A stretch of DNA of 64,000 nucleotides, taken from assembly GCA_020975725.1 (NCBI GenBank), contig QXJR01000017.1, forward strand, positions 617,680 through 681,679. Reading direction: 5' to 3'. A program made the translations under genes and the position numbers. Positions within the stretch are counted from its first letter, which is position 1; each line of letters begins with the position of its first letter. The notes below the pieces were generated by a model, which saw nothing but the letters and a program-made list of their open reading frames with translations, searched no databases and was not told where the DNA came from. Positions 27,371 through 58,928 of the stretch are shown here, piece by piece. This stretch comes from Picocystis sp. L7 (Eukaryota; Chlorophyta; Picocystophyceae; Picocystales; Picocystaceae).

Positions 27371-27872
27371 GCCTACCATCACGCTCCATTTCCCCGGATC
27401 CTCGAGCTCACCGCGATGGGAACAATCTTATTGGAGAGCCCTTTCGAGGGTGTGGGGCATGCCTCCTGCAATACTGTTTAAGAACGACAACTTTGTATCC
27501 CCTCCTATTCAACTTTTGCTCGCATGCACGCCTCTACAGCTCTTTGCATTACTTTCAACTATCCGGCTTTGGCACAATGCCATTTCTCCAACACACACTG
27601 TCGTCCAACAACGCATGGATTACTAACTGACCAGAATGGGTTGCTTTCCTTTTCTGTGCGTCTCCATTTAACAAACCCCGAGCCCACATGACTCAGAGAC
27701 AAGTTTCGCTATCTTATTCATGTGTCCCTCCATGAACTTGTTCCTCTCCATCACCGTCTCCTCTCGCTACTCAAGCAAGTGCTTGACCAAATCCACCTCG
27801 TGGACTTGGACTCTCGACCGACCTCGCCTAGTGGTAGTGCACGCTCATTGGTTCCTCTCAAGAAGTTCGTTC

Positions 27873-28600
27873 TGTTGCATAGGGCAGGTGCCTCCTCCTG
27901 TGAACGAGGCCCACCAGGGTCCGTCGAGACCCTGGCTTACGGGTCCGAACCATCGGGGCTACCCATTGAGTAAGGGATCTGATATCCCTTTGGAATACAA
28001 CGACAGTACCGTTCCGGAACCAGAACCAGTTTCCCCGGGTCGCATTGAAGCACGGTCGCCCCCGATCAGAACGGGCTTCCTGTAAGGAGATCCGAAGACC
28101 TTGATCGAGACAGACCGAAAGGAACCAGCCGACCCCGCCCCTATCTACAATGGTTGCGGATGGGACTGTGGGGCTGAACGGTGTCGAGCAAGTGACAGCT
28201 CACAGTCGCCCCGGGGCGAGCAAAATGGACGGTCAGGTGTGACTTAGAGGAGGACGAAGGCGGATAAGACACCCCCTTTGCTCCAATTCCAACCGCCAGT
28301 GAGAGGCGGTGAGAGAGGTAGACCTATCGTCCCTCTTTGCTTTGAGATAGAATTTGACTTTGCCAACCACCAGCGCGCCTCCTTCCGTCCTCTCTCGACG
28401 ACTTGCTGAGGCCTACGCGCTTGCCCAACCACCAGGAGGTCGACCTCGCTAGGCACCACGCCTCGAGCCGGCTAGAAGGGGACTTTGTCCGCGAGTGCGA
28501 GGACCCTCGCCCAAGACCGGTGCACCGGCTCCTTCCCGTCACACGCTCTCCTCCAAGGCACGTGTGTGAGTGTCCAAAACTCACGGACGCTTTTGCAACA
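27873..28600 (+). repeat. 5' LTR
   Basis: A 728-bp LTR with TG...CA ends, same length and apparently same sequence as 34896-35623. It presumably holds the promoter for the genomic RNA. Confidence 0.95.
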
Positions 28601-28646
28601 CTGTCTAAGCTTGTACTTGAGAGAAGACTGCCGTACGTTCAAGTAA

Positions 28647-29885
28647 ATGGAAGATCCGGAGCACACAACTCGAATGGGTTCGCTCCGTAGGGACTTGGAA
28701 GAAGAACGAGCCATGCGAAGCACGCTCCAAGAGCGCATTGCTGAGCTCGAAGGTCAGCTTGAAGCCTTGCAAACAAACCCAACTGATGGCGAAGAACAAA
28801 ATATCACCGATGAGAACCAAGAAAATCAGCAAGTGACAACCGTAGGAGGGACGCATGCGCCCTCCGAGGAAGAGGGACTTCCTCATCTCACCACATTGTA
28901 TGGAACAGCCCTCCAGGACTCAAAGAACATACAAAAGGTCTCCCTGGAGAAGCCTGAAAAATTTACTGGACTGGAGCTTGATGAAAATCCATATGCTTTA
29001 ACTTACTGGTATCGTGATGTTGTGTGTTGGTGCCAAGCATACGCTCTCGACCGTCCGAAAGAGCAGTTGGTACTTGCGATCAGTCAAGCTTTGGGAGGCA
29101 CAGCAAAATCAATGGTGCAGAATCTCATTATGCGCGATCCAGGTGCCCTCAAATCAGTGGAAGAATTGTACGCTTACCTCCGCCGTACGTTCCAGAATCA
29201 AGACCCAGGCCCCGAAGCATGGCGCGAATTTCATACTACCCGTATGCGCAGGAGCGAAAATGCGTTACAGTTTCTGAACCGGCTGGTGCAATTGACATTC
29301 GTCGTCAACGCAAGTACGTCTCCTGTATGCCGTACGCTAACGGAGAACGATATATCAGCGAGGCTGCAGCACGGGCTGCCAGCCTACCTCCAGCGAGCGT
29401 TGTATAAGCACCTGGACCACCTGATTGATGTGGATAAAGTTCCTGACATGGAACCAGGAAACTTAGCATCAGTCATATTCAAGCTAGAAAAGGAAGCTGC
29501 TGAACAGCCCCGCAAAGAGACCAAGACAGCTGATGATCAATGGAAGAATCGCTACGCAACTGCCCGTCGCAACAGCGATCACCGTCCCCGTTTGGAACCG
29601 ATGCGAAGGCCAGTAGCTGCTGCGATGCCGGCGCCATCGAAGGATAATCAGGACAGCGGCTCCGCAAGGAGAGAGCGAAAGCGATTCGACGATCTCGATG
29701 AAGGGCAGAAGAGTGCTATCATAAAGGTGCAGACTCAGCTATCGAACAAGCCGCTCGGAGCCAGGCTGTCCCAGGAAGAGAAGAACATGTGCCTTGCGCA
29801 CGGGCTGTGCCAACGCTGCCGTCGTTACGGCCATGATCAGTCCTCATGCAAAATGGCATCTGTTATGGGTGCCCCAAAAAACTGA
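28647..29885 (+). CDS. gag: Retrotransposon Gag polyprotein
   Basis: Structural protein of the retrotransposon particle, 412 aa. The N-terminus has a Glu-rich predicted coiled coil ([25 protein letters not shown]). The middle is a gypsy-type capsid region ([71 protein letters not shown]). The C-terminus is basic and ends in one CCHC zinc knuckle [14 protein letters not shown] (C388, C391, H396, C401) for RNA packaging. The stop at 29883-29885 directly follows the slippery heptamer that lets a fraction of ribosomes enter pol. The start Met lies only 46 nt after the LTR. Confidence 0.92.
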
Positions 29886-29923
29886 GTACTCTCCGCCCGG
29901 TGACCCAGGTTACCGGAGCGGAG
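29876..29923 (+). promoter_or_regulatory. Programmed -1 ribosomal frameshift signal (gag to pol)
   Basis: Slippery heptamer A AAA AAC at 29876-29882, in the zero frame of gag and immediately followed by the gag TGA. An 8-nt spacer (29883-29890) leads to a hairpin: arms CTCCGC + CCGGTGAC (29891-29904), loop CCAG (29905-29908), arms GTTACCGG + GCGGAG (29909-29916 and 29918-29923) with one bulged A at 29917. That is a 14-bp stem with one G-U pair. The -1 frame continues as LSTLRPVTQ into pol. Confidence 0.88.
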
Positions 29924-32900
29924 CCGGGAGCGAAACCAGCAGCAGCCCCGGTTACCAATGAAAGGACTCCTGTCTGCCTGAACTCATTGAGTAATATAAG
30001 GCCTAGACAGGAATTCCTAGCTGCAGAAACTTACTTTGGAAAGAAAACGAACAAAATCAGGACACAAGCCTACCTTGATACATTAGCAAGCTACTCATTC
30101 ATCAGCGAGAAACTATTTCATGAACTGCAGTCCACTGACCCAGCAGGGGTGACCTGGAAGAACACTGGCGATGCCGTGCAGTTCACCGTAGCCGTAGGCC
30201 AGCAGGTTCATACAGCCCCCGTAATTCAGGCCACCGTTACGATCGATGGCTTCCGTGGTCAAGTACCCTTCGCAGTTGCACCACTGGAGACATTTGATTG
30301 CATATTAGGGGGGACCTTCTGTGACAAACACCTGATGGCCCTAGACTGGCAGAACCACCGAATGGTCTTAAAGAACAGTAATGGCAGAAAGCACACTGTG
30401 TATGGAGATCACCAGTTCATCGCATCCAGAAAGCTGGACTTAATCGTCCCCAGATGCGAAGCTCGGAAGGCGGTACAGGACCCAGGCTGTCTATTGCTTA
30501 TGATACAGCCTCTGGATCCCAGACCGGAAATCATCGATGAAGAAGCAGACCTTGACCACATGCGGACAAAAGTCAGCGATGAATGGGAGCTGGACCACAG
30601 CGATCAGTACCGGCTGGACCGACTGATCAATCACCGATATAAGGGCTTATTTGAGCCTCGTACGCAGCTACCGCCAGAGCGTGTCAGCGGAGAGGCCTTC
30701 AAAATACAGCTCACTGAAAATGCGACCCCGCAGTACAGGAATTATTATCGGCTATCCCCTCACCAGCAGGCTGCCCTAAAGGAGTTAATCAGCGAATACG
30801 TCGATGCCGGTAAAATGGACCTTTGTGCTGGCTCCAGCTGGGGAGCCCCAGTAATCCTAGTACCGAAGAAAGACGGGGGCTGGCGGGTCGTGTTTGACTA
30901 CCGCCTGCTTAACAATGTTACTGTCAAGGACAGATATCCGCTGCCCCGTATAGATGACTACCTGCAGAACTTGAGAGGTGCGAAATACTTTTCCTCGCTG
31001 GATGCTTTGGATGGGTTCCACCAGGTTAGGATGGATCCTGCCGACATCGATAAAACTGCAGTGGTCACACCCTTTGGATCCTATGTGTGGAAGGTCATGC
31101 CCATGGGTGCTGCCAACGCGCCTGCGATGTTTCAGCGCATGATGAACAGAATATTTGGTCACCTGCTCTACTTAAAGGTGTACATGGATGACATATTGGT
31201 GCATTCTGAAACAAAAGAACAGCATTTCCAACACCTTGAGGAATTCTTCGCTACCTGTGAACAGGCCGACATCCGGCTGAAACGATCGAAGTGTCACTTT
31301 TTCAGAAGTACTCTGGAGTGGGTAGGCTTTCGGATACGTAATGGACAGTTGGCCTGTACCAACCACCTACTTACCAAGATCCAGCAGTTCCCGCGACCGC
31401 AGTCGCAACGCGATAATATGGCCTTCCTTGGGCTGTGCCAATTCTATATGCGATTCGTTCCGCATTATGCTGAACTTACAGCCCCATTGACTGAGCTGAA
31501 CCAGGCATCGATGAAACATGGGTTCACATCCTACTGGAAAGACCCACAAGAAGAAGCTTATAACAAGCTGGTTGCAGCACTCACGAACCCACCTGTCCTG
31601 GCACTGTTCGATGAGGACCGACCGATCCGAGTCGAGACGGATGCTTCGGACATCGGCATGGGAGCAGTTCTGATGCAGCAGGATGAGCAAGGGGAGTGGC
31701 ACCCAGTTGAATATTGGTCAAAGAAGCTGAATCAAGCCCAACAGAATTATCATCCAGCAGAGAAGGAAACCTGTGCCATCCTGTATGCTCTGCAGCACTG
31801 GAGACACTTGTTGTTTGGTCAGCACTTCAGCGTACTTACGGATAACAAAGCTAGCCATTTCCTCAACACCAAGTCTACAGAGCAGCTGTCTCCGCGCGAG
31901 ATGCGATGGATTGAGAAATTAGCCTACTTTGCCCCCTTCACTGTTGAGTATAGACCAGGATCAGAAAATACTGGGGCAGACTACTTATCGCGCCATTCGG
32001 CTAAGGTGGACAGTGGATCAGTCTACTGCATACTGGATCTGTGTGCTGGTATGGGTACAACGCTACGCGCTTTGGAAATTGCTCTGCCTCCATCCACAGA
32101 TATTACGATCGATTACATTGCCGTCGAAAGGGACCCAGATTGCCGCAGCGTCATACAGAGGGTGTTCAATCAAGTACGACTCGCCCGTCCAGGGCTGTTT
32201 ACGCGCAAAGACATATTCCGTTACGGCAATGATGTGACCATATTAGGGCAGCGGCGAAAACTCCCCAAGGTACACTTACTTATAGCAGGAGTACCCTGCC
32301 AGCCCTTTTCGCGAGCGAACACAGACCAAGGCAAACCTCCCCTGGGACTATTTGACCAACGAGAGCTGTTCACTGCAGTTGCTAATATACACAAGCGCTT
32401 GAACAGTCCGGACTTTATATTAGAGTGCACCCCATTTGCTACTCACCTGGAATCTCACCTGGACACGATTGCTGAATGGTTTGGATCCCCAGTAGTTGAG
32501 GACCTGTCACAGTATGGGGCGCAGGCTCGTACAAGGTTATGCTGGACCTCACTACCCCCTCTGCAGGAACCTCAGCTCTCGATGGGACCAATACCTCTTA
32601 CCTGGCAGGAGTGCTTGGATGCTGGTGCAACCGTCCAACGCGATGCTCTGAATCGCCCTCGCTTGAAATGTCCAACTTTGATGGCCAGCTCACGGTCGCA
32701 CAGCGATCGTGCGAAAACCACCTGGGTCCATGATGAAGGAGGCGAACTTCGCCCGCTGAGCGTTAACGAACGAGAGCGATTGGTTGGGATGCAGCCTGGT
32801 GATACTGCTGCAGCGAACGTAAGCGATGCAAGCCGGCAGCGCATGTGTGGTAATGCATTTCCAGTTGGATGGATTGCCCACATGCTGCTGCGTTGGCAAA

Positions 32901-34867
32901 TTCACACACGGACGCTTAGACCGCTAGCATGCCGCAGTCCAGCAAGGACTGTGTGTGGATCGATCGCGTCAATTACTACGCCACGATCGGTGCGCTCAAT
33001 GCTCTGCGCTACGCAAGGGGAGCCACCTACTCTACTGGAGCGTATACGCATCGCTGCCGACAATGATGCCAGTTACCAGGAACTTCTTCATTCTCCAACT
33101 GAAGACCATATTGTCAAGAACAACCTTCTTTTTACAAGCAGTGACAATGCACAACCAGTACTGGTGGTGCCTGCAGACAATAGCCTCAGACAGGAGCTGC
33201 TACACATGGTTCATGATCAGCGACACTTTGGTTCAGCGAGAACTTATGCAGATGCCTCAAGACACTTCACGTGGAAGGACCTGAAGAGACACATCGAACT
33301 CTTCGTCGCACGCTGCCCTGTGTGCCAACTGCAGAAGCCCAGTAACCGGTCCCGACACAGTCAGCTTTGCCCAGAGTTCAGGTTCTTTCCGTATCCTTTC
33401 CATACTGTTGTGATAGATGTGGTTGAAAATCTACCGCTCACTGCTCTTGGCCATAATGCTGTCCTGACAGTGGTGGACCGCTTCACGAAGTTCGCTATCT
33501 ATATACCGATTCACTCCACATGGAGTGCGCATCGTCAGGCTCAGTGCTTAATGGATAACCTGGTGTACAAGTATCACACCCCAGTTCATATACATACCGA
33601 CAACGGGCCCGCCTACCGATCGTTGTTTCAAGCTTTCTGTGCAGCTTTGGGAGTCCGCCATGTTACTGGCACTCCATATCATTCTCAATCGCAGGGAGGA
33701 GCAGAGCGACAGCATCGCACGCTCCTGCAAACGCTGAGAACAACATGCTCTGATAAGCACCAATGGGATCTGTTCTTACAAGCAGCAGCTCACGCATACA
33801 ACGATTCGGTGCATACAGCTACGAACTTCTCACCCTTTCAGCTATTATTTGGATGTCCATCCAGACTGCCCTGGCATTTGCAGATTCCAACCATAGAGGG
33901 CACTAATCAATCAGACATCGTAACGACATTCGACCGCCGGGTAACCAGTTTATTAAAACAGCACCGATCGGTCTACGATACTGTCCAGGCCAATTTGCGT
34001 AAAGCTGCGGAGCGCATGGCCGCCGCTGCCGCGCATCGACCGAAGAAAACATTTGAAGCTGGGGACAAGGTGAAGGTGCAGTATGGTCTCAAGGGGCCTG
34101 CTGACAAACATAAGCTGGACCCATACTTTGTTGGCCCTTATGTCATTAAACGGGCGCTGAGGAACGGCTGTTACGAACTGGACTTACCACCTGGCTCTGC
34201 TTTTTCAGAACGAATCCACGCTGATCGCCTTGAACACTGGACAGATTCAGACCTCACGCTATTTCCGATGGACGAAGATCGACAACTGCAAGCGTCCCCG
34301 CTGCCGGATACAGATGCTATGCGTACCGAGTCAAGGCAGTACCGCATACGACGCTACCTGCTGCGCGATTTCTCCGCGTTCCCAGCGAGGCCAGTGCGCT
34401 ATTGGGTGGAAAGCAATCTGTCAGATCCTTCGCAACGCTACTTCTGGGTGGATGAAACAGCAGCTTTGTTGGATGACTTTTTACCACTGGAAGAACACAA
34501 TGGGTGTATTCCAGAACAGGGTATCACAGATGCTAACTATGAAGCAGTTCAGACGCATAAGAAAACTACCTACCTGCAGTCACCCAGCCCAATTATGATC
34601 AACACCTGGCCATTCACCAAGCTACCTTTTCAGACCAGACAGCGGCCACGCAAGCCGCAACGGACCGACCTAACCGGCGCAGTTGTGCAGGAGCTTTTCC
34701 ATGAGGGGCAGGACAAGTCAGCTTATTATCAGGGGTTGGTGACAGATGAAGACAATGGGCTCTTTGAGGTGCTATGGACAGATGGCAAGAAAGACTACTA
34801 TCTTGCAGACCAGATCAGATCAATGTTGTATGACCCCATAGCATACATCTATGACTTTCAGGTATAG
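29882..34867 (+). CDS. pol: Retrotransposon Pol: protease-RT-RNase H-C5 methyltransferase-integrase-Tudor-like
   Basis: Made as a Gag-Pol fusion by -1 frameshift; 1,661 codons, frame also open from 29846. Residues below count from 29846. Protease: [11 protein letters not shown] (D78; the usual DSG/DTG is DTL) and [25 protein letters not shown] 446-449. RNase H: ETDAS (D599), E639, D666, D712. Methyltransferase 729-1012 with all main C5 motifs (listed separately). Integrase: HHCC zinc module (H1123, H1127, C1157, C1160), catalytic D1191, D1252, E1287 with 34 residues between the last two, and a GPY/F motif near 1429-1432. C-terminus: 1613-1661 resembles a Tudor fold ([30 protein letters not shown]). 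No stop or frameshift interrupts it. The protease DTL triplet is unusual and could affect processing. Confidence 0.93.
32030..32881 (+). other. Cytosine-5 DNA methyltransferase domain within Pol
   Basis: About 284 residues inserted between RNase H and integrase. Motif [12 protein letters not shown] binds AdoMet; motif [10 protein letters not shown] carries the catalytic Cys (C818, nt 32297-32299). Motif VI is ILECTPF, with the catalytic Glu (E860) but CTP in place of the usual NV. Motif VIII is QARTR (893-897), motif [19 protein letters not shown] and motif [10 protein letters not shown]. Between VIII and IX lies a short target-recognition region of about 70 residues. Motif order is the unpermuted C5-MTase order and every key residue is present, so an active enzyme is plausible. 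The short size and motif IX wording are closer to DNMT3-like or bacterial enzymes than to DNMT1. Target sequence cannot be read from this. Confidence 0.9.
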
Positions 34868-34880
34868 CCGGGTTCGTCCC

Positions 34881-34895
34881 AGGGAGCCGGGAGAG
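34881..34895 (+). other. Polypurine tract
   Basis: AGGGAGCCGGGAGAG lies directly before the 3' LTR, the expected place for plus-strand priming. Two pyrimidines interrupt it. Confidence 0.6.
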
Positions 34896-35623
34896 TGTTG
34901 CATAGGGCAGGTGCCTCCTCCTGTGAACGAGGCCCACCAGGGTCCGTCGAGACCCTGGCTTACGGGTCCGAACCATCGGGGCTACCCATTGAGTAAGGGA
35001 TCTGATATCCCTTTGGAATACAACGACAGTACCGTTCCGGAACCAGAACCAGTTTCCCCGGGTCGCATTGAAGCACGGTCGCCCCCGATCAGAACGGGCT
35101 TCCTGTAAGGAGATCCGAAGACCTTGATCGAGACAGACCGAAAGGAACCAGCCGACCCCGCCCCTATCTACAATGGTTGCGGATGGGACTGTGGGGCTGA
35201 ACGGTGTCGAGCAAGTGACAGCTCACAGTCGCCCCGGGGCGAGCAAAATGGACGGTCAGGTGTGACTTAGAGGAGGACGAAGGCGGATAAGACACCCCCT
35301 TTGCTCCAATTCCAACCGCCAGTGAGAGGCGGTGAGAGAGGTAGACCTATCGTCCCTCTTTGCTTTGAGATAGAATTTGACTTTGCCAACCACCAGCGCG
35401 CCTCCTTCCGTCCTCTCTCGACGACTTGCTGAGGCCTACGCGCTTGCCCAACCACCAGGAGGTCGACCTCGCTAGGCACCACGCCTCGAGCCGGCTAGAA
35501 GGGGACTTTGTCCGCGAGTGCGAGGACCCTCGCCCAAGACCGGTGCACCGGCTCCTTCCCGTCACACGCTCTCCTCCAAGGCACGTGTGTGAGTGTCCAA
35601 AACTCACGGACGCTTTTGCAACA
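34896..35623 (+). repeat. 3' LTR
   Basis: 728 bp, TG...CA ends; I found no difference from the 5' LTR. Confidence 0.95.
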
Positions 35624-35809
35624 GTTCAAAACGACTATAAAAAGTTGATTGACGTGATCGATCAAAGGCTTCAAAGCTTGGAACAAATGATGATGATCCC
35701 ACTTCAAAGAGCAAATAAGCGCACTTATGCAGTCCTCGTTGGCTCGTGTCTCTACTTGGTGAAGGGATTGCAAGAGTGGAAAATCCATTGGTGGAGGAAG
35801 ACAAGGTGA

Positions 35810-39346: not shown

Positions 39347-40281
39347 GGGGTACCCCAAAATGCCCGTGCCGAAACAGGGATTAGGGGTCGAATTGGGGTC
39401 TGCCCCCACGGGACAAAACTGCCCCCACGGGACACCTTCCCCGTGTTTGAGAGGAGCCGTATCGAAGCCCCCGAAACTCGGTACGGTAAGAATGTGTAAT
39501 TCCGACACTAAGACCCGGGATTCCCGTCCCCTGTTCGGCTGCAAAAGTTCGCGGTCCTCCCAAGCTCTGTCCCTCGATTTGGGTTCAGAAGCAAGGAATC
39601 CCGATACTTGGGGCGACTCAGCGGGGACTGTAAAGGAAATGCCTTGGGTAGCAGATTTGCCATTGGACATCCCGAGCAAGTATCCATGCCCGCCGAGGAC
39701 GACATCCGACTTCGGACCAATCACGATGAAGGAACCAAAGGGGGTATTCAGGAGCGCGAATGAGACGAAGACAGAGAGAAAAAGGGGGGCATTCCTACTT
39801 TCGTGAACCCCTCGGGTACTGTGCGAACGAGCTGTCGGAACAACCCCGACCCCTTCGGACGCACGACCAATTCGTCCAAAATCACTCCGACGAGTCTTCC
39901 AGGCGCCCACGATGCCTGAATCTACGATTGATAAAGGATCCAAGACGCAATCATCCCGACGCCTGACTGCCAGCGTTTTCAGCGCTGTCTACCCTCTCCC
40001 TCCTGCACGACCTCCCAGCGGCCAAGGGACCGAGGCGTCGTCGGGCAGCAGGAGGTCCCTTCGCGGCCTCGGAATGGGAGGAAGGGTCGGGACGAGGCCT
40101 CCACCTGTCTCCGGAGGCTTCGAAAGGCCTGTCTGCTGAGTTTCGGATCCATTTTCCTCGAAACGACGCAATTGGAAGGGGTCCTCCGGGTGGACGACCT
40201 CCCAGCGGCCAAGGGACCGAGGCGTCGTCGGGCAGCAGGAGGTCCCTTCGCGGCCTCGGAATGGGAGGAAGGGTCGGGACG
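39347..40281. repeat. Repeat block A, copy 1
   Basis: Starts at the palindrome GGGGTACCCC followed by AAAATGCCCGTGCC. It is repeated in direct orientation at 48088-49022 with a constant offset of 8,741 bp, so no net indels over about 935 bp, and only scattered substitutions. It includes two units of a GCCCCCACGGGACA motif and the start of a 187-bp tandem array. A minus-strand open frame (39344-39943) is conserved between the copies but resembles no protein I know, and conservation follows from recent duplication. Confidence 0.85.
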
Positions 40282-40610
40282 AGGCCTCCACCTGTCTCCG
40301 GAGGCTTCGAAAGGCCAGTCTGCCGAGTTTCGGATCCATTCTCCTCGAATCGACGCAATTGGAAGGGGTCTTCCGGGTGGACGACCTCCCAGCGGCCAAG
40401 GGACCGAGGCGTCGTCGGGCAGCAGGAGGTCCCTTCGCGGCCTCGGAATGGGAGGAAGGGTCGGGACGAGGCCTCCACCTGTCTCCGGAGGCTTCGAAAG
40501 GCCTGTCTGCCGAGTTTCGGATTCATTTTCCTCGAAACGACGCAGTTGGAAGGGGTCCTCCGGGTGGACGACCTCCCAGCGGCCAAGGGACCGAGGCGAT
40601 GGTCACGTGG
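40011..40610. repeat. 187-bp tandem array
   Basis: Units beginning CCTCCCAGCGGCCAAGG start at 40011, 40198, 40385 and 40572 (the last truncated), a strict 187-bp period. Two further starts with the same period (48752, 48939) lie in block A copy 2. Open frames run through because 187-bp units are GC-rich, but the period is not a multiple of three, so they are not repeats of one protein. Confidence 0.9.
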
Positions 40611-40966: not shown

Positions 40967-41515
40967 CCCCACGGGACACGACTGCCCCCAGGGGACAGGG
41001 TCGACCCCACAGGGACACGGTTGCCCCCAGGGGACAGGGTCGACCCCCAAAGGACACAACTGCCCCCAGGGAACACGACTGCCCCCAGGGGACAGGATCG
41101 ACCCCCAGGGGACACAGTTGCCCCCAGGGTACACGGCTGCCCCCAGGGAACACGGTCAAGCCCCAAAGGACACAGCTGCCCCCAGGGAACACAGGTGCCC
41201 CCAAGGTACACGGCTGCCCCCAGGGGACAGGGTCGACCCCACAGGGACACGGTTGCCCCCAGGCAACACAAGTGCCCCCAGGGAACACGACTGCCCCTAG
41301 GGGACAGGATCGACCCCCAGGGTACACGGCTGCCCCCAGGGAACAGGGTCGACCCCAAAGGACACGGCTGCCCCCAGGGGACAGGGTCGACCCCAAAGGA
41401 CACGGCTGCCCCCAGGGGACAGGGTCGACCCCAAAGGACACGGCTGCCCCCAGGGGACAGGGTCGACCCCTAGGGAACACAACTGCCCCCAGGGGACACA
41501 GTTGCCCCCAGGGGT
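40967..41515. repeat. 19-bp minisatellite (GCCCCCAGGGGACACGG-like)
   Basis: About 28 degenerate copies of a 19-bp unit combining GCCCCCAGGGGACA with variable ACGGTT/GGTCGA ends. The related motif GCCCCCACGGGACA occurs twice inside block A and a CCCCCAAAGGACAT version occurs at about 47292, so the array probably grew from block A sequence. The frame running through it translates as Pro/Arg/Gly/Gln repeats and is not a gene. Confidence 0.85.
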
Positions 41516-41539
41516 ACCCCAAAATGCCCGTGCCGAGTC

Positions 41540-41678
41540 AGGCTTCGTGAATTTTAATAGGACGGTTGGAAACATCCCGGCATGAGGGACTGTGGGATGG
41601 CCGATTCCCCAGATAGGCCCATCTCGGACATCGGTCCAGTCCCCCCCTCTCGGGGCCCCCATGCGAAAACAACCCCCC
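41540..41678 (+). repeat. Left terminal inverted repeat of KDZ-like element
   Basis: Inverted match of 47109-47248, differing by about one base in a C run. It ends inward at a CCCCCC run. Confidence 0.85.
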
Positions 41679-42183: not shown

Positions 42184-44937
42184 TTACATGTCCTCCAATG
42201 TTTCTCTTTTCTTTGCGTTCCAGTAGAGGGCTTGGGCACAAATCAACGTGATGTAGCCTACTTGTGAGCTGAACATCATGCTATTCTGCCGGCAGCGGAC
42301 AAAAGCATTGAACTGCTCACTCAGAGGGCCAATGATGCTCCTGTTGTGTTTCGAGTTGTAATGCTCAGGAGCGGTGGTGTGATTTCTATGATGCATTTGA
42401 TCTTGAAAAAATCTGGTCTTGCGAAAAAAATATGGTTCGCGGAGACTAGCGGCCAGTTCAAGTTCCTTTCCATTGTCGTACACGATCTCTTCAGGAGCAT
42501 CAGGAAAGAATGCATACAAGTACTCCACAATTTCTGTTGTGCTTTCGGCATTTTTTTCGTTGATGACATGAAATCCCACAACACGTTGACATCCTCCACA
42601 AAGATAATACACTAGTCCGGGGGTAAAGTGTATGCTTCGTGCATGGTCTTTCTCTGCTTCTACGACACTTTCCTTCCCATAATGCCTTGCTGATCTGACC
42701 CATTTGCCTTTGGGACCCATTGCACCTGTCTTCGACACCAAATGCAAAGTGGAAATCCCCTCGAAAGACTTCAAGTATGTGGAGTGGGAGCTGCACTCAC
42801 CTTGCTCGACGAGAGATTCTTGGATTGTGCTTTTCTTGACTCTCAAAAGCAAATATTGTAAGAAAGGGTCCAATTGATCTTTGCTTGTGTGTCTTGTCAA
42901 GTATTCCATAGCAATGCCCAAGAATCTACTGCTTGGAAACATGCTTGCTATTGCTAGATCGGTTGGTTGGCATGCCAATTCCATGTTGCAAATTCTAGCC
43001 AATAATTCCCGGCAATCACTTGGTATGAGGGAGTTCAACGGGTAGTGTGATCCAATGGCCATTCCTAGCTCTCTCAAGTTTCTCACTAAGTGCCAAAGGC
43101 CTGGTCTAGTCTCGTTGAGGCATTGGTCCATGAGCAAGATACTTAACTCCCAAGGGCACTGAAGTTTCAACTCCAACACTTCTCCCAACGCAATTCCACT
43201 AGTTGCAAGCCCCCACAAGAGCCCCCTCGTCTTTTTGGGCAAGTAATTTTGTGCGAATGGCTTCACAAGTATCGGATCCCTACAACGCAGCCATGGTTGC
43301 TCAAAGTCTGCCGCTTTCCTCCTCACTCCCAGCACGATCCCGTCGATATGTATTCGCTTGCATTGTTTTCCTCTCTCACAGACACATTGAAATGGATGAT
43401 GATTGTCAATGTCAATTGCGGCAATTATCCCTCGCATGGCTTGACGGAAACTATCTTTCGATGCCTTTATCAATTGCCTCGCATTCACGCTTCCTGATGG
43501 CCCCGAGTACATCCCTTGCTTCACAAGCGTTGTAAGTAAACTTATGAATGTGTGCTTGGTTTCAGAGAAAGAATTCCAACACAACATCAAGTCACGCAAT
43601 AGAAAGATATAGTGGTGATACTCCATTCTTTCGCCGCTACCTTTCCGTGGAACAAAGAAAAAGGCACACGCTCGAGGATCACATGCACAATGTGGACAAA
43701 CCTTGGCCCCAATAACTGTCACAAATCCATATTGACTGACAATTATGCAATTGTCAATTGCTTGCAAATGCTGTGTTTTGCACCGACGACAACCACCGTC
43801 ACTTGACACGGGTCCAAAGCACTTGTCCATGTCTAGGACCACTTTCGCATTATCCTCCATCAAGTTTTTAGCCATGATTCTGCCGATAGCTTCAGTGACC
43901 TTGTGCATGCTAATCGCTACTTCTTTGCTAGGCTTGTGAAAGAAGTTCCCAAGTTGCCTTCGTTTGAAAGCTGCTTCAACTGTTGCAAATTCTTGTACCT
44001 CATTTCTTTCCAGTTCCGGCCCGCTCACACGGCTCCCCACACAAGCATTATCGAGGAGGATGTCCGTGCAACAACGACGAATACACTTCGTGTGTATCCA
44101 AGATGTTGTATGCCTTTTGCAAGTCAAACAGCGGTCTTGTCTTTGTGAGCCGTATTGCCTCGTAAGTCCCCATGCATGTGCATCTTCACGCGATCCACAA
44201 CATACCGCTTTGAAAAGGTTACCTTTTTCTTCCAATTCAAATTCTTAAACCAAACCTGCCATGCCCTTCAATTTCTCATGCTCTTCCAAATCTTCCCTAG
44301 AGAGATTAGCATCCACACTTCGAACGTCTTGAAGAATGTCTTCCCGTACATCCACACCAATCCCATCACACAACAATACCATTCCTCTCTGAAAAGGAAT
44401 ATCCACTTCGATGATGCTTGGAAAGATAGACAATAAGTTCTGTGTGCATCTACAAATTTGTCCTATTCCACGGGTCGCCATGTCCATATAAGCCCATTCA
44501 CTCCCCCCACAACCATGCACATTGCAATAGCTCATTGTGAGACCGTCCACCTTCCTTGCACTGCACATACCTAGTGGTATGGGTGCGTTGTTGCTTGACA
44601 ACCCAACAACAACAAAGACTATCTCTTCTGAGTTTCTGTAGACGGTCGGCACCCCATTTGTAGCAACGTAGGACTGAAAAAAGAGATCAGAATGTGACCA
44701 TTCAGCACGTACATCACGCAATGATTCGTTGCCATCACCTTCTCCCAGATCTTCGATTGGTATGAAACCGTCATCTCCCAAGCCCGGACTCTCACTTACT
44801 TCTACTATGACACGGTCCTCCGTGTTGGATCCCTCAACATCTTCAACAAGGGACTTCTGCTTCCGCTTCTTCCCTACGTTGACTCGGTTCGCGAAATTTT
44901 TCTTATGAGACTTACGGAATCCAAGGTATTTTGGCAT
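42184..44937 (-). pseudogene. KDZ/HMGXB3-like transposase with one in-frame stop
   Basis: One minus-strand frame runs from 44937 (MPKYLGFRKSHKKN) to 42184, about 917 codons, broken only by TAA at 44245-44247. The N-terminal part is basic then acidic, followed by Cys/His-rich segments (CNVHGCGGSEWAYMDMATRGIGQICRC; CLTCKRHT; CRRCKTQHLQAIDNC; CPHCACDPRACAFFF). The C-terminal part has VYYLCGGCQRVVGFHVI, IVEYLYAFFPDAPEEIVYDNGK, REPYFFRKTRFFQDQMHHRNHT and LSEQFNAFVRCRQN, which match the transposase-like region of HMGXB3-type/KDZ proteins as I know them (a YD motif after the 'AP.x.IVYD' turn, then 'REP.FF..TRF'). A 33-nt gtttgg...aaaag segment around the stop could be read as a tiny intron, but a nonsense mutation is simpler. 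Confidence 0.55.
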
Positions 44938-54601: not shown

Positions 54602-55944
54602 GGACGCAGTCCCATCCACTCCAAATGGGGGCCCTGGCTCCACGGACTCTGTGGATGGGGCGATGAAAGAAAAGGGGCCTCTCTGTCGATTTCGTTGTAC
54701 GAGCGCAGTTGTGCGTCGAGGATACATCGAGATCTTCGGTCGTGGTATCGAAATGTTCGCTGTTTTTCTTCCCCACCTTTTCTTCCGAAGTTGGCTGGAT
54801 CGAAATCCATCCCAAGTCCACAAGATCCTTGGGAAAGTCCCCAGTGGTGTCGGAATTCCCAGGACCGTGCAGAGGACACGCCCTGCTGCGGATCGGCTGC
54901 CGAAATGGAACGGACGGACGAAGCGACCGAAACGATGCGAAACCGGCAAGCCACGACGTGCAAGCGATATTCCGAGAGGATCGATCCATCGAACGTCTCG
55001 GAATGTCGCTCGCCGAAACAACCGCGGTTTCGAAGCCACGCTTGTTCCGAACGCGACGAAACATCCGCTCCGACACCGACAACAGCACACCGGAAGGAGG
55101 AGCGGTGCGAGGCATCTTTCGAAGGAGAACGTCGCGAGCTCTTGGTATTCCGCGAAACGGAAGGTAAACCTGCCGTTATCGATGGATACTGATGCTTCCA
55201 ACGAGGCGTTTGGACGCAAACCCTTCCACGCGTGGGCGCTCCAACTGGTCGACCTCGGTGATGGTGTCGGACAAGGAAGAGCGCGGTGGGCCTGATCGGC
55301 AGCCGGTGCGGGATTCGTACGAAACGTTTCGGAAGGCCCTTGGAGCGCAATCATCCCAAAGTTGTCAAAGCTGACGCCACTCACAAGTGGCCACAAGCAC
55401 CGGCTTTGGAAAACCGAAGGAGATCCATTCGTCCAAACCAAGTTCGCGTCCGTGATGCCCACTTGTAACGACCCATGGTCAGCGGCCTTGCTACACCATG
55501 CATCGACGGTGTAATGCGTGGTGGAGCAAGCCCGCTGCGGACGCATCGCCAAAGATCGCATCTCCGCAGATGCGAGCCGGTCCTCTTCTGTCCGAGGTGG
55601 GTCGTCTGGAGTTGTTTCTCCTGAGCCTGGGGAGCGGGGAGAACTGGACCTCATGCAGCAGGATCTGCCAGGATCCGGCCAGAATCCCGCCAAAACGACC
55701 CGTGTGCGCTACGTACGGACGTGCACTCGCGCGGCGAGCTTCACGCAAGCGAAGAACGAACAGCGAGGGGAATGAAAGAAGGTGAGAGAGGAGAAGGGAC
55801 TGGAGGGCGTGGCACTCCTCGAAAAGGAGAACAACGCCAACTGCGCGAGAGAGAGGTGCTGACAAAAAAAATCATCTGCACCTGCAGGAAGTGAACACAG
55901 CCAAGGCACCATGCAGCGGAGTGATCATGTCTTGCGTACTTGCA
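54602..55944 (+). repeat. MULE left TIR
   Basis: 1,343 bp, inverted match of 58958-60300. It contains the promoter region and first 11 codons of the transposase. Open frames inside it are duplicated in the right TIR and are not separate genes. Confidence 0.93.
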
Positions 55945-58928
55945 ATAGAAACATATGTGCCATCGATGTCATTCAAGATGTATTTCAATTCAGTACAAAG
56001 AAGGAAGCTGCGAAGAAGCTTACCAAATACAAAGCCTTGAAGAAGAATGTTGCATTAAAGAGCCTCAAATATGAAGCATTCATCAGCAAGGGGGGGAGGA
56101 TAGCTTGCCTTGCAGCTATCTCATCTTGGTGTGATTTAATGTGCTTACTTCAGAGTTGCCGGGATAAGCATTTGATAGTAAATTTCATGGAACGCAATGC
56201 CGTTCTTTTGCGCTCTACTTTGGGTGATGCGCCTGTGGTGGGCGAGCATGTACTCGAACGGACTCATGGGTTCGGAGCTAGCTCTTTACATCTTCTTCGG
56301 AGTTGTCAAGCTATAGCCTTGCATGAGAGCGCAATGCAAAATGAAGTACACTTGTTACCTTTGACAGAATCTTTGTTCCTGGATGACCTCATTGATGACC
56401 TAGGCCAAGCTTTCAATCACAAGTACAACATTGAGAGATCAAAGTACAAGACTGAGGATTGCCTTAACGTTAGGTATATCCGACTAGCATGCCAGGCACG
56501 TGGGAAACCATCATCTAAAGTCAGGAAGAGAAGGGCGAAAGATTCCATCAAATGTGATTGCAAATCTGTGTGCACACTAAAAGGAAAGGTGGACGAGGAC
56601 ACGGGTCGTATACTTGTTTCTGACTTGCCCTTGTTATACTTCTGTCACTCACATGATTGCACATCTCCGCAATCTGGAATATTTCGACCTCTTCATCCTT
56701 CCCTTGAAATGTTCATCCTACAACACAAGTGCATGACTTTGCAAATGGGCGACCTTCAGCGCCTTTGTTGTGAGAAGGGATCATCTCTAGCCACTAATGG
56801 GGAGGAGGAAATTAGACTTGGTCCGGATGCCCGCTTCAAGCCAACAATAAATCAAATCAAGAATGTCCTAAAACGAGATGCATTGAAAACGTGGCGAAGA
56901 GGTAATGATCAAACTAATCTCAGAGCAAAAGGTTTGGGCATGGCAAAAGATGAAGACACCTTTGTTGTTTTCCGGGAAAGTAGAGAACGTCAACATGCAA
57001 TTCATGGGAAGTTAGGGTTCTTCAGTCCATCCCACGACGGGCCAAAAAGTATTTGGGTTTATGGAGGTTTGAGGAAGGGTACCGTTCCTCATGTATCCTC
57101 GACAGTTTTGCCGTATGAACGACCACTTGCGTCTAGTCACACAAAGGGGCGGCAAAGATTTCTTTTCCTATGGATGACGAGGCACGGAAAATACATGCTT
57201 GAGAAGTATGGTTGTTGGGTAGGCTTCGACTCTACATACCGTTTGAATATGTATGGGTTCCCTCTCTCCATCCTGGTGGTTAAGACTAACATGGGCAATG
57301 CTTTCCCCGTGTGTTTTTACTTGTCTGACCTGGAAGACACAAGCACACATGAAGAGGCTATAGCTTTAGTGAAGTGGATTTGCCCTAACTGGCGCCCGGA
57401 GACAGTATTAAGCGATTGCGCCATGGAACTAGTTCACGCAGTAGTAGAATCAAATTTTCCTCTAGCTACGTGCATTTGGTGCCATTTTCACGTGGAGCAA
57501 GCATTGTTGAGACATGTGAAGAAGAAGTACGTTAACGTAGGCAAAGAAGTTGAGAGGCAAAAGCTCATGAAATTCATGCATGCACTTCTCTATGCAAAAA
57601 CGAAGGTTGCGTTTGAGAACGTTGAATTGGAGTTCAAGCAGTACCTCAAGCATTTTGGATTCGAAGCGACCGAAAGATACTACCACCAATACTTGAAAAA
57701 GCATGAGATGCGGTGGGCGACCTATGCGCGAAACAAGAAGAGGTGTTGGGGTCATGTGAAGAGCATTAATACCAACAACTTGAACGAGTCATTCAATGGT
57801 AAGCTAAAACAACAATTCGGTTTGAAAAGAAACAAATTGGTCACCTCCCTGGTCATGAAGCTCATGAATGTGGCCAAGATGTTCTGGACAGATTATGTGC
57901 ATGCTAACACCATGCAAAGCAATCCATATCGAACGTTATATATTGAAGGGAACATTATCCCCACGAGAGATTTGTGCGTGGTAAGACGACCTGACATTGT
58001 GGTGAGGGCCCTTGCTACTAATCAAAAGAAAGGACAAACAAACAACTACACCATCACCCCAATCGATTCCTCCTTAGGACAGTCATGGTTGGTGTCAGGA
58101 AGCCGGTTTGTACAATACACTGTCAAGAATGATAGAAACTGTTGGACTTGCACATGCGTGGCTTCATCGAGAGCGAGAATCCCATGCCATCACATCTTTG
58201 CAACATTGCAGCATACAAAGATGGATTTCTGCAGTGTGGAACTCCTCGGTCCGCACTTTTGTATTGACGAACAATGCGTAGACTGTCCTGATGGGCGCAC
58301 ATTAGGGGATGCGGTGACCTCTTGTGTAGACACATACGGCGTCTCCTGTCCACAAGATATGGGGGAAGAACCCACATATGCGCTTAGTATTTCTTCTCAG
58401 AGCCCTCTGAATGATGACGATGAGTCAAGGCAAGCGGTGATGGACCAGTTACGAGCATTGCGAAGCAACTTCTTCCAGGTGGCAAACCCGAATCCCACAT
58501 CTCTCGCATTGTACAAAGGCGTGCTCAAAGTCGTTGAGGAGTACGCAATGACGGCAGCTCCTCATACTCAATCAAGTACATCACATGCTCAGACTGAAAT
58601 ACTTGCCACGAGTAAGAGACTTTATGACTTTTGTATGGAAGGTGCCTCCAATGATCAGGTTACCCGCTTACAACAATGCTTGCCATTGGTTGCTGCACTC
58701 CGAGAAGTGACGCAGGGTTCAGTGCCAACACTTGGGACGCCAAAGGTTGTCAAGAAAAGGAAGAGGCAGCAGGTGAGAGAATCACCACTGCTATCGATGG
58801 AGAAATTTGTTAAGACTCATCAGCAAACATATGCAGTGAATCAGAAAAACAAAGTCGTGCGCACATTGAGCCAGTCCCTAAATGACATACCGCTGAACCA
58901 AACATGCGAAAACCGCATACACAGTTAA
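55911..58928 (+). CDS. MULE transposase with SWIM zinc finger
   Basis: DDE transposase of 1,005 aa. The N-terminal half has FAR1-like or zinc-binding regions (RYIRLACQARGKP, CDCKSVCTLKG, LLYFCHSHDC). The catalytic core follows the MULE pattern: GCWVGFDSTYRLN (D440), ETVLSDCAMELVHAV (D502), CIWCHFHVEQAL (Cys/His 521-527, the C/H motif between second Asp and Glu) and INTNNLNESFNGKLK (E626). The C-terminal SWIM finger is CTCVASSRARIPCHH (C747, C749, C759, H761). A long tail ends with a basic patch (VVKKRKRQQ), possibly a nuclear localisation signal. No stop or frameshift. The start at 55911 lies inside the left TIR, so the TIR supplies promoter and start codon; later in-frame Mets (residue 79 onward) exist. 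Confidence 0.93.
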   Translation: MQRSDHVLRTCNRNICAIDVIQDVFQFSTKKEAAKKLTKYKALKKNVALKSLKYEAFISKGGRIACLAAISSWCDLMCLLQSCRDKHLIVNFMERNAVLLRSTLGDAPVVGEHVLERTHGFGASSLHLLRSCQAIALHESAMQNEVHLLPLTESLFLDDLIDDLGQAFNHKYNIERSKYKTEDCLNVRYIRLACQARGKPSSKVRKRRAKDSIKCDCKSVCTLKGKVDEDTGRILVSDLPLLYFCHSHDCTSPQSGIFRPLHPSLEMFILQHKCMTLQMGDLQRLCCEKGSSLATNGEEEIRLGPDARFKPTINQIKNVLKRDALKTWRRGNDQTNLRAKGLGMAKDEDTFVVFRESRERQHAIHGKLGFFSPSHDGPKSIWVYGGLRKGTVPHVSSTVLPYERPLASSHTKGRQRFLFLWMTRHGKYMLEKYGCWVGFDSTYRLNMYGFPLSILVVKTNMGNAFPVCFYLSDLEDTSTHEEAIALVKWICPNWRPETVLSDCAMELVHAVVESNFPLATCIWCHFHVEQALLRHVKKKYVNVGKEVERQKLMKFMHALLYAKTKVAFENVELEFKQYLKHFGFEATERYYHQYLKKHEMRWATYARNKKRCWGHVKSINTNNLNESFNGKLKQQFGLKRNKLVTSLVMKLMNVAKMFWTDYVHANTMQSNPYRTLYIEGNIIPTRDLCVVRRPDIVVRALATNQKKGQTNNYTITPIDSSLGQSWLVSGSRFVQYTVKNDRNCWTCTCVASSRARIPCHHIFATLQHTKMDFCSVELLGPHFCIDEQCVDCPDGRTLGDAVTSCVDTYGVSCPQDMGEEPTYALSISSQSPLNDDDESRQAVMDQLRALRSNFFQVANPNPTSLALYKGVLKVVEEYAMTAAPHTQSSTSHAQTEILATSKRLYDFCMEGASNDQVTRLQQCLPLVAALREVTQGSVPTLGTPKVVKKRKRQQVRESPLLSMEKFVKTHQQTYAVNQKNKVVRTLSQSLNDIPLNQTCENRIHS

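Follow-up and report, generated by a model that had tools for sequence, protein, structure and literature searches.

A DNMT3-type cytosine methyltransferase inside the pol frame of an amplified Ty3/gypsy-type retrotransposon of Picocystis sp. L7

The DNA analysed here is a stretch of 64,000 nucleotides (hereafter the window) from the green microalga Picocystis sp. L7. Judging from the sequence there is very little doubt that its positions 27873-35623 are an uninterrupted Ty3/gypsy-type long terminal repeat (LTR) retrotransposon, autonomous-looking, with a C5-cytosine methyltransferase (MTase) in pol. The enzyme is present in many copies of the element in the genome, and the gag-pol junction carries a conserved signal for -1 frameshifting. 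As the best explanation of the whole, to which we give an even chance, we propose that this lineage captured a DNMT3-type MTase, which would be packaged via Gag-Pol and would mark the new cDNA.

Results

The two LTRs of the element show no mismatch over 728 bp and are flanked by a 4-bp GTTC repeat, which indicates a recent insertion. Both features fit the limits given by a preliminary description of this DNA, which were exact (Table 1). The same description had claimed one uninterrupted pol frame with protease, reverse transcriptase (RT), RNase H, C5-MTase and integrase. This frame of 1673 aa was recovered, and the order of the Pfam matches along it agrees: a weak protease-like domain, RT (RVT_1, 1.5e-37), RNase H (1.1e-36 and 1.7e-35), DNA_methylase (4.7e-9, above the cut-off), Integrase_H2C2 (1.7e-15) and rve (5.5e-13). 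All the residues it named are in place, the YMDD box, the catalytic cysteine and the integrase D,D34,E being listed in Table 1 and the other MTase residues being E860, QARTR (893-897) and GNAFP (1002-1006). The assignment to Ty3/gypsy follows from the direct LTRs with TG...CA ends, the short target-site duplication, the protease-RT-RNase H-integrase order, with the MTase between the last two, and an H2C2 plus D,D35,E-type integrase, the last D and the E being separated by 34 residues here. No Pfam match above the cut-off was obtained for the 412-aa product of the gag open reading frame (ORF), and no tRNA gene was detected by ARAGORN in the window.

The MTase domain possesses the C5-MTase motifs I, IV (PCQ), VI (E), VIII (QxRxR) and X (GN). 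Among 45 domains compared, the catalytic cysteine is kept in 44 and QxRxR in 41; PCQ is absent only from L037 and P0020 (SCQ in the latter), and QxRxR from L026, P0005 (the same sequence as L026), P0019 (partial) and L037. The motif VI glutamate is invariant in 11 of 11 sequences and the motif X asparagine in 16 of 16, the catalytic positions being invariant in all 16 own domains. The predicted fold is nearest to DNMT3, with a continuous alignment between motifs VIII and X. By whole-sequence E-value the bacterial Dcm (3lx6, 1e-12) and DNMT3A (1.4e-12) are about equal, but the Dcm match comes in two pieces (38.1 and 9.3 bits) and that of DNMT3A in one piece of 50.0 bits. By predicted fold and motifs, the domain is of DNMT3 type, and the enzyme is likely to be active on DNA.

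An MTase tree, which the preliminary description had proposed, was computed with the methyltransferases of the host, namely DNMT1, a BAH-chromo DNMT (CMT), a PWWP-DNMT and two genes resembling DNMT2 and DRM; CMT, DNMT2 and DRM are names assigned here from motifs and domains. The element MTases form one clade, and their descent from the host DNMT1, CMT, DNMT2 or PWWP-DNMT is unsupported by the trees. Three groups meet in these trees: the element MTases, DNMT3A with phage enzymes, and the rest. Since the trees are unrooted, a position next to DNMT3 hinges on where the root is placed, and DNMT3 and DRM-like enzymes are represented by a single row each, the former partial. In the approximately unbiased test, the grouping of the element MTases with the host DRM-like gene was not rejected (p 0.154), although it is not the best tree. 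A scan of IMG/VR with the MTase profile gave 16 loci, 25-45% identical. The MTase also matched type II MTase models of PADLOC (up to 9.1e-15), which is uninformative. The DRM-like gene itself (L062, G000:C20:155600-157600, minus strand) has the permuted order, with motif X before motif I, in a host that looks chlorophyte-like by its DNMT1; DRM is given as restricted to streptophytes in a part of Sarre et al. 2025 (PMC12344493).

To assess the distribution of the enzyme, the genome (20.5 Mb, 30 contigs) was searched with protein queries, and the resulting counts are lower bounds. With the 284-aa MTase query, 138 matches were obtained, which correspond to 137 places because one copy is split in two; their identities are 48-100%, and about 59 of the 137 places, by hand count, lie in frames of at least 1660 aa without internal stop. 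The RT piece gave 150 matches, 132 of them at 67% identity or more, and an MTase match lies 0.9-2.2 kb downstream on the same strand in 121 of these 132 copies. Of the remaining 11 copies, all in frames of less than 1000 aa, 3 show a downstream match to Pfam DNA_methylase and one stands at a contig end. The preliminary description had named a lack of the MTase in other genomic copies as a finding that would speak against it; the genome shows the opposite, and the 137 places rule out an assembly artefact or a single-copy chimera. A further divergent subfamily (L005-L008) was found only by the Pfam search of the genome. The LTR of the window's element has 41 matches; 12 pairs spaced by about 7.02 kb account for 24 of them, and the other 17 are unpaired. 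Contigs C3 and C4, representing 5.6% and 6.0% of the genome (11.6% together), contain 33 and 22 MTase places, hence 55 of the 137. Likely tandem arrays of the element were seen on C3 (345042/352066) and on C4 (1048782/1055931/1063080). In database contigs, relatives gave 21 matches, each with RT and DNA_methylase domains. One database protein (P0021, 1851 aa) combines the C5-MTase with a PHD finger and a Dam-like domain, the latter two below the Pfam cut-off.

A tree built on RT together with RNase H was compared with a tree of the MTase for 34 shared rows, which represent subfamilies of this genome and relatives from databases; five near-identical copies of the genome were left out, as were L006-L008, P0005, P0006 and P0019. 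Of 31 splits, 18 are common to the two trees, and no conflict exists between splits supported at >=90 in both, so the MTase is co-inherited with RT; among the deepest rows (P0017, P0018, P0020, P0021 and L005), which stand on long branches, the branching order is uncertain. Synonymous changes have reached saturation in most comparisons between subfamilies, so that pairs with a synonymous divergence (dS) of 0.1-1.5 number 3 of 190 for the MTase, 2 of 190 for RT and 2 of 190 for the integrase, with ratios of nonsynonymous to synonymous divergence (dN/dS) of about 0.09, 0.014 and 0.033, respectively. The ratio of about 0.09, compared with 0.014 in RT, points to a clear constraint on the MTase, weaker than that on RT. 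Between the window's element and L020, dN is 0.185 for the MTase, 0.051 for RT and 0.100 for the integrase. These sequence data are best explained by an old capture of the MTase, placed between RNase H and integrase, and its retention in the lineage ever since.

The gag-pol junction was compared in 20 long own pol copies, the window's and 19 chosen from a listing of long frames. The heptamer A_AAA_AAC, in the correct register and with a stop directly after it, is present in all 20, and 18 were retained by a stricter heptamer scan with a reading-frame filter. Across 14 distinct sequences, 92.9% of the cells of the downstream hairpin are paired compared with 80.0% in shuffles, a count favoured by the fact that the structure was picked from single-sequence folds. 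Both sides have changed in 7 of its 12 pairs, and its covariation score (0.452 vs 0.191) is lost when the partners are shifted by one, two or three columns. The number of further pair types is not above that of the shuffles, 411 of 500 of which reach it, and the hairpin of L031, with a loop 3 nt longer, is poorly fitted by the alignment. With an X_XXY_YYZ heptamer in register, a short spacer and a stable structure, the junction has, in its sequence, the classical -1 frameshift design, and its conservation in this clade of elements is new here.

A sister Ty3/gypsy family is also present in the genome, with 18 RT matches at 51-52% identity in frames of up to 2672 aa, and by protein search an MTase match was found downstream of none of the 18. 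In two of its loci, L037 (G000:C3:1010500-1020400) and L061 (G000:C25:794500-802500), gag and pol are fused in one frame of 2668-2672 aa, with about 190 aa at the place of the MTase that have neither motif I nor PCQ. The idea that this insert is an MTase remnant was weakly supported (hhalign probability 20%, E 0.0011) and was set aside. After the C-terminal region, L037 has a Dam-like domain (PF05869, 7.5e-12), also found in L061 by the genome search; the domain reads HPP where the usual Dam motif is NPP or DPP. Dam matches number 101 genome-wide, and as many of them are paired about 8.12 kb apart, it looks as if the frame of the sister family ended inside its LTR. Since more distant relatives with the MTase (P0017, P0018, P0020, P0021 and L005) branch outside or beside the sister family, a loss of the enzyme in the latter would be the simpler reading of the sequences.

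Signatures of methylation were sought in the dinucleotide composition, with the codon usage held fixed and CpG counted across codon borders. The 21 MTase-bearing pols are all poor in CpG (0.59-0.77) and rich in TG+CA (1.20-1.47), with an excess of CWG (1.17-1.48). Two copies of the MTase-less sister family gave 0.88-0.89 for CpG and 0.67-0.68 for CWG. Values for 11 host ORFs (DNMT1 and ten ORFs of the window, some possibly not genes and one MULE-like) extend from 0.59 to 1.20 for CpG and from 0.75 to 1.42 for CWG. CpG depletion was rejected as a proof of self-methylation because some host ORFs are equally low, so that it is not element-specific. For CWG, the two sister copies compared, L037 and L061, are near-identical, so that the contrast has a sample of one family (n=1), and the host-region ORF at 42184 is as low (0.75). 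In the window's subfamily, 8 copies were fetched and the tandem twin was left out; the 7 near-identical copies show 121 private changes in all, 56 of them contributed by the old copy L011. Private C-to-T changes affect 17 of 402 CG, 17 of 494 CHG and 15 of 1004 CHH sites, an enrichment with Fisher p values of 0.005 and 0.022. From these changes, the inserted copies look methylated in vivo at CG and are probably methylated at CHG, whichever enzyme is responsible.

Concerning the host, its DNMT1 has two close matches (one at 100%, one at 88%), after which the closest proteins with a name come from green algae, at about 50%, and from plants. There are 18 matches to light-harvesting complex (LHC) proteins, and the one tested resembles chlorophyll a-b binding proteins. 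EukProt proteins labelled Pavlova_lutheri are 100% identical to the host, namely P0005 to L026 over 1205 aa, and the DNMT1 P0022. Because the published D. lutheri genome (43.5 Mb, 73.25% GC; PMC8379373) conflicts with this label and because DNMT1 and LHC are green-algal, the EukProt label or culture is probably wrong or contaminated. The GC content of the window is 55.3%.

The conserved C-terminal region of pol gave an AlphaFold2 model with a pLDDT of 75.3 and a pTM of 0.68 (residues 1-43 below 50), in which strands at 159-198 form a possible small beta barrel near the end; a role as chromatin reader was not retained, the Tudor/SH3 hints all being sub-threshold. Elsewhere in the window, tandem repeats occur at 39995-40598 and 40967-41552, with three copies at a 187-bp spacing and an array at a 19-bp spacing, and a 1005-aa frame with a MULE-type transposase domain and low CTG use lies at 55911-58928.

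Table 1. Features of the retrotransposon, in positions of the window
Feature	Positions	Strand	Details
Target-site duplication, 5' copy	27869..27872		GTTC
5' LTR, 728 bp	27873..28600	+	TG...CA ends; identical to 3' LTR
gag ORF, 412 aa	28647..29885	+	named by position
-1 frameshift slippery heptamer A_AAA_AAC	29876..29882	+	directly 5' of gag stop TGA 29883-29885
Hairpin, expected frameshift stimulator	29891..29923	+	8 nt past heptamer; fold z -3.0
pol ORF, 1673 aa from first ATG	29846..34867	+	one open frame, -1 relative to gag
Aspartyl protease-like domain	30050..30319	+	pol residues 69-158; below Pfam cut-off
Reverse transcriptase	30860..31336	+	pol residues 339-497; YMDD at 446
RNase H	31535..31930	+	pol residues 564-695
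C5-cytosine DNA methyltransferase domain, DNMT3-type	32015..32923	+	pol residues 724-1026; catalytic C818
Integrase zinc-binding H2C2 domain	33176..33343	+	pol residues 1111-1166
Integrase core	33395..33706	+	D1191, D1252, E1287; Pfam rve 1184-1280, extended to E
Conserved pol C-terminal region, no known family	34208..34861	+	pol residues 1455-1672
Purine-rich tract before 3' LTR, candidate polypurine tract	34881..34895	+	by eye
3' LTR, 728 bp	34896..35623	+	
Target-site duplication, 3' copy	35624..35627		GTTC

Discussion

Given the conserved frameshift signal, the MTase should be made only within Gag-Pol, alongside RT and integrase, and should then enter the particle, which favours methylation of the new cDNA before integration. 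We propose the following sequence of events: Gag would be the main product, and -1 frameshifting at A_AAA_AAC would give a minor Gag-Pol that brings protease, RT, RNase H, MTase and integrase into the particle, where the most likely substrate of the MTase would be the new double-stranded cDNA, methylated, probably at CG sites, no later than integration. Daughter copies would arrive pre-marked, and the host DNMT1 could maintain the mark. They would probably benefit by resembling the normal CG-methylated DNA of the host, or by being protected ahead of integration. That such self-methylation of cDNA is the main role of the enzyme, as its place in Gag-Pol suggests, is a proposal that we hold slightly below even chances.

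Several observations weigh against this proposal. The sister family has been amplified without a catalytic MTase, so that transposition in this host does not require one, and one own copy, L026, lacks the Q of QxRxR. The loss of CpG with gain of TG/CA is also found in some of the 11 host ORFs, and as C-to-T changes are raised at CHG too, the host seems to methylate inserted copies. In the nearest described case, the isolated KnitGypsy-Dnmt3 domain of Klebsormidium, no methylation was detected in yeast, a result called inconclusive there (de Mendoza et al. 2018, PMC5890265).

The C-to-T signature at both CG and CHG in inserted copies would also be expected if the chromatin of the host were the substrate of the MTase, either in trans or where integration takes place, with the target being marked or silencing being recruited, so that the element limits its harm and is tolerated. 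The position of the MTase next to the integrase in pol and the regional accumulation of copies on C3 and C4 are in agreement with such a role, but weak purging could equally explain the accumulation on two contigs, and a frameshift-limited Gag-Pol points to an enzyme of the particle and not to a free nuclear one. We therefore regard action on host chromatin as unlikely.

Retroelement-borne DNMTs are not new in themselves. As the preliminary description had stated, and in agreement with de Mendoza et al. 2018 (PMC5890265), they are borne by LINE and DIRS elements in Symbiodinium and by gypsy elements in Klebsormidium; that study, which cites Iyer et al. 2011 and another study for RT-linked DNMTs, also reports that SymbioDIRS enzymes methylate CG de novo in yeast and proposes methylation of cDNA. 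One section of Sarre et al. 2025 (PMC12344493) names only dinoflagellates and a charophyte as host groups. In our searches of the open-licence literature we found no such element reported outside these two groups, although an earlier mention may exist in Iyer et al. 2011. The element is thus of a known kind, a highly amplified variant in a green alga that is probably not a charophyte, set apart by its host, its simple LTRs, the fixed place of the MTase between RNase H and integrase, the frameshift signal and the enzyme-less sister family.

The closest likeness is to KnitGypsy-Dnmt3 of Klebsormidium nitens, described as a gypsy pol with a DNMT3-related domain that keeps the key residues, in several copies and under purifying selection (PMC5890265). 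This shared architecture could mean that our element is the known KnitGypsy-Dnmt3 lineage or its direct descendant, with only the host being new, a possibility that we judge improbable. By the figure legend, the repeats of KnitGypsy-Dnmt3 are DIRS-like, whereas those of the window's element are simple direct LTRs, and its copies are fewer than those of the Symbiodinium elements, compared with 137 places in 20.5 Mb here (PMC5890265). The comparison is by description only, and applies likewise to the place of the MTase and the -1 frameshift signal, KnitGypsy being known here from its text description. The host DNMT1 is nearest to chlorophytes among named proteins, and no Klebsormidium-named protein occurs among 21 and 67 database matches, a weak argument since most of these are nameless and shared 5-residue words were required.

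Other systems are more distant. SymbioDIRS-Dnmt3 and SymbioLINE-Dnmt are also DNMTs borne by retroelements in many copies, with the DNMT inside Pol in SymbioDIRS (PMC5890265). Whereas the window's element has a DDE integrase and LTRs, DIRS elements rely on a tyrosine recombinase and LINEs lack an integrase. The MTase resembles animal DNMT3 and plant DRM in predicted fold and in an alignment through motifs IV-X, including the target-recognition region, but the element MTases form their own clade outside DNMT3A and the host DRM-like gene, and their motif order is not permuted, unlike that of DRM. DNMT3-like C5 methylases of phages (Pseudomonas phage Epa40, Synechococcus phage S-CBS2, Psychrobacillus phage Perkons) match with E-values of 2e-9 to 3e-11, and PHROG 116 over the whole MTase domain (4.1e-21); these phage enzymes are encoded by free-standing genes and share about 27-32% identity with the MTase over 58-72% of the domain. 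Other domains captured in polyproteins of Ty3/gypsy elements, such as chromodomains and, in orchids, an AlkB-type m6A demethylase (PMC9289625), are likewise of host type but are not C5-MTases. In Mariner-1_OLpv of marine viruses (PMC3627910), a cut-and-paste transposon, the C5 methylase is a separate gene, as is the methylase of the DNA transposon Sola1-1_Ec32 of Ectocarpus and of its green and red algal relatives, that of Sola1-1_Ec32 being of N4-cytosine or N6-adenine type (PMC12477816).

The approximately 190-aa insert that the sister family keeps at the same place without catalytic motifs could suggest that the domain is kept for a non-methylating role, as a binder of cDNA or RNA or as a spacer between RNase H and integrase, or that its substrate for methylation is RNA. 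Such roles appear quite improbable in view of the conservation of the catalytic cysteine, QxRxR, the motif VI glutamate and the motif X asparagine in the domains compared, of a predicted fold nearest to DNMT3, and of a domain that does not group with the host DNMT2. A chance-captured passenger without benefit is hardly credible, since the MTase, although faster in dN than RT and integrase in the comparison with L020, has remained open and collinear, with its catalytic residues complete, even between subfamilies whose synonymous sites are saturated.

Returning to the marking of cDNA in the particle, a more speculative extension, which we consider rather unlikely in its entirety, can be drawn from the sequence patterns. 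An old Ty3/gypsy clade of green microalgae would pre-mark its cDNA at CG in the particle with a frameshift-dosed MTase, the new copies mimicking CG-methylated host genes and avoiding the CHG pathway, and the enzyme-less, Dam-bearing sister lineage would be CWG-depleted as if exposed to host CHG methylation.

The conserved frameshift signal yields a concrete prediction, that of the enzyme as a component of the particle. With many open recent copies beside an enzyme-less sister family in a 20-Mb genome, the benefit of self-methylation is testable in one small alga. If the proposal is true, 5-methylcytosine on a new insertion need not be a silencing decision of the host.

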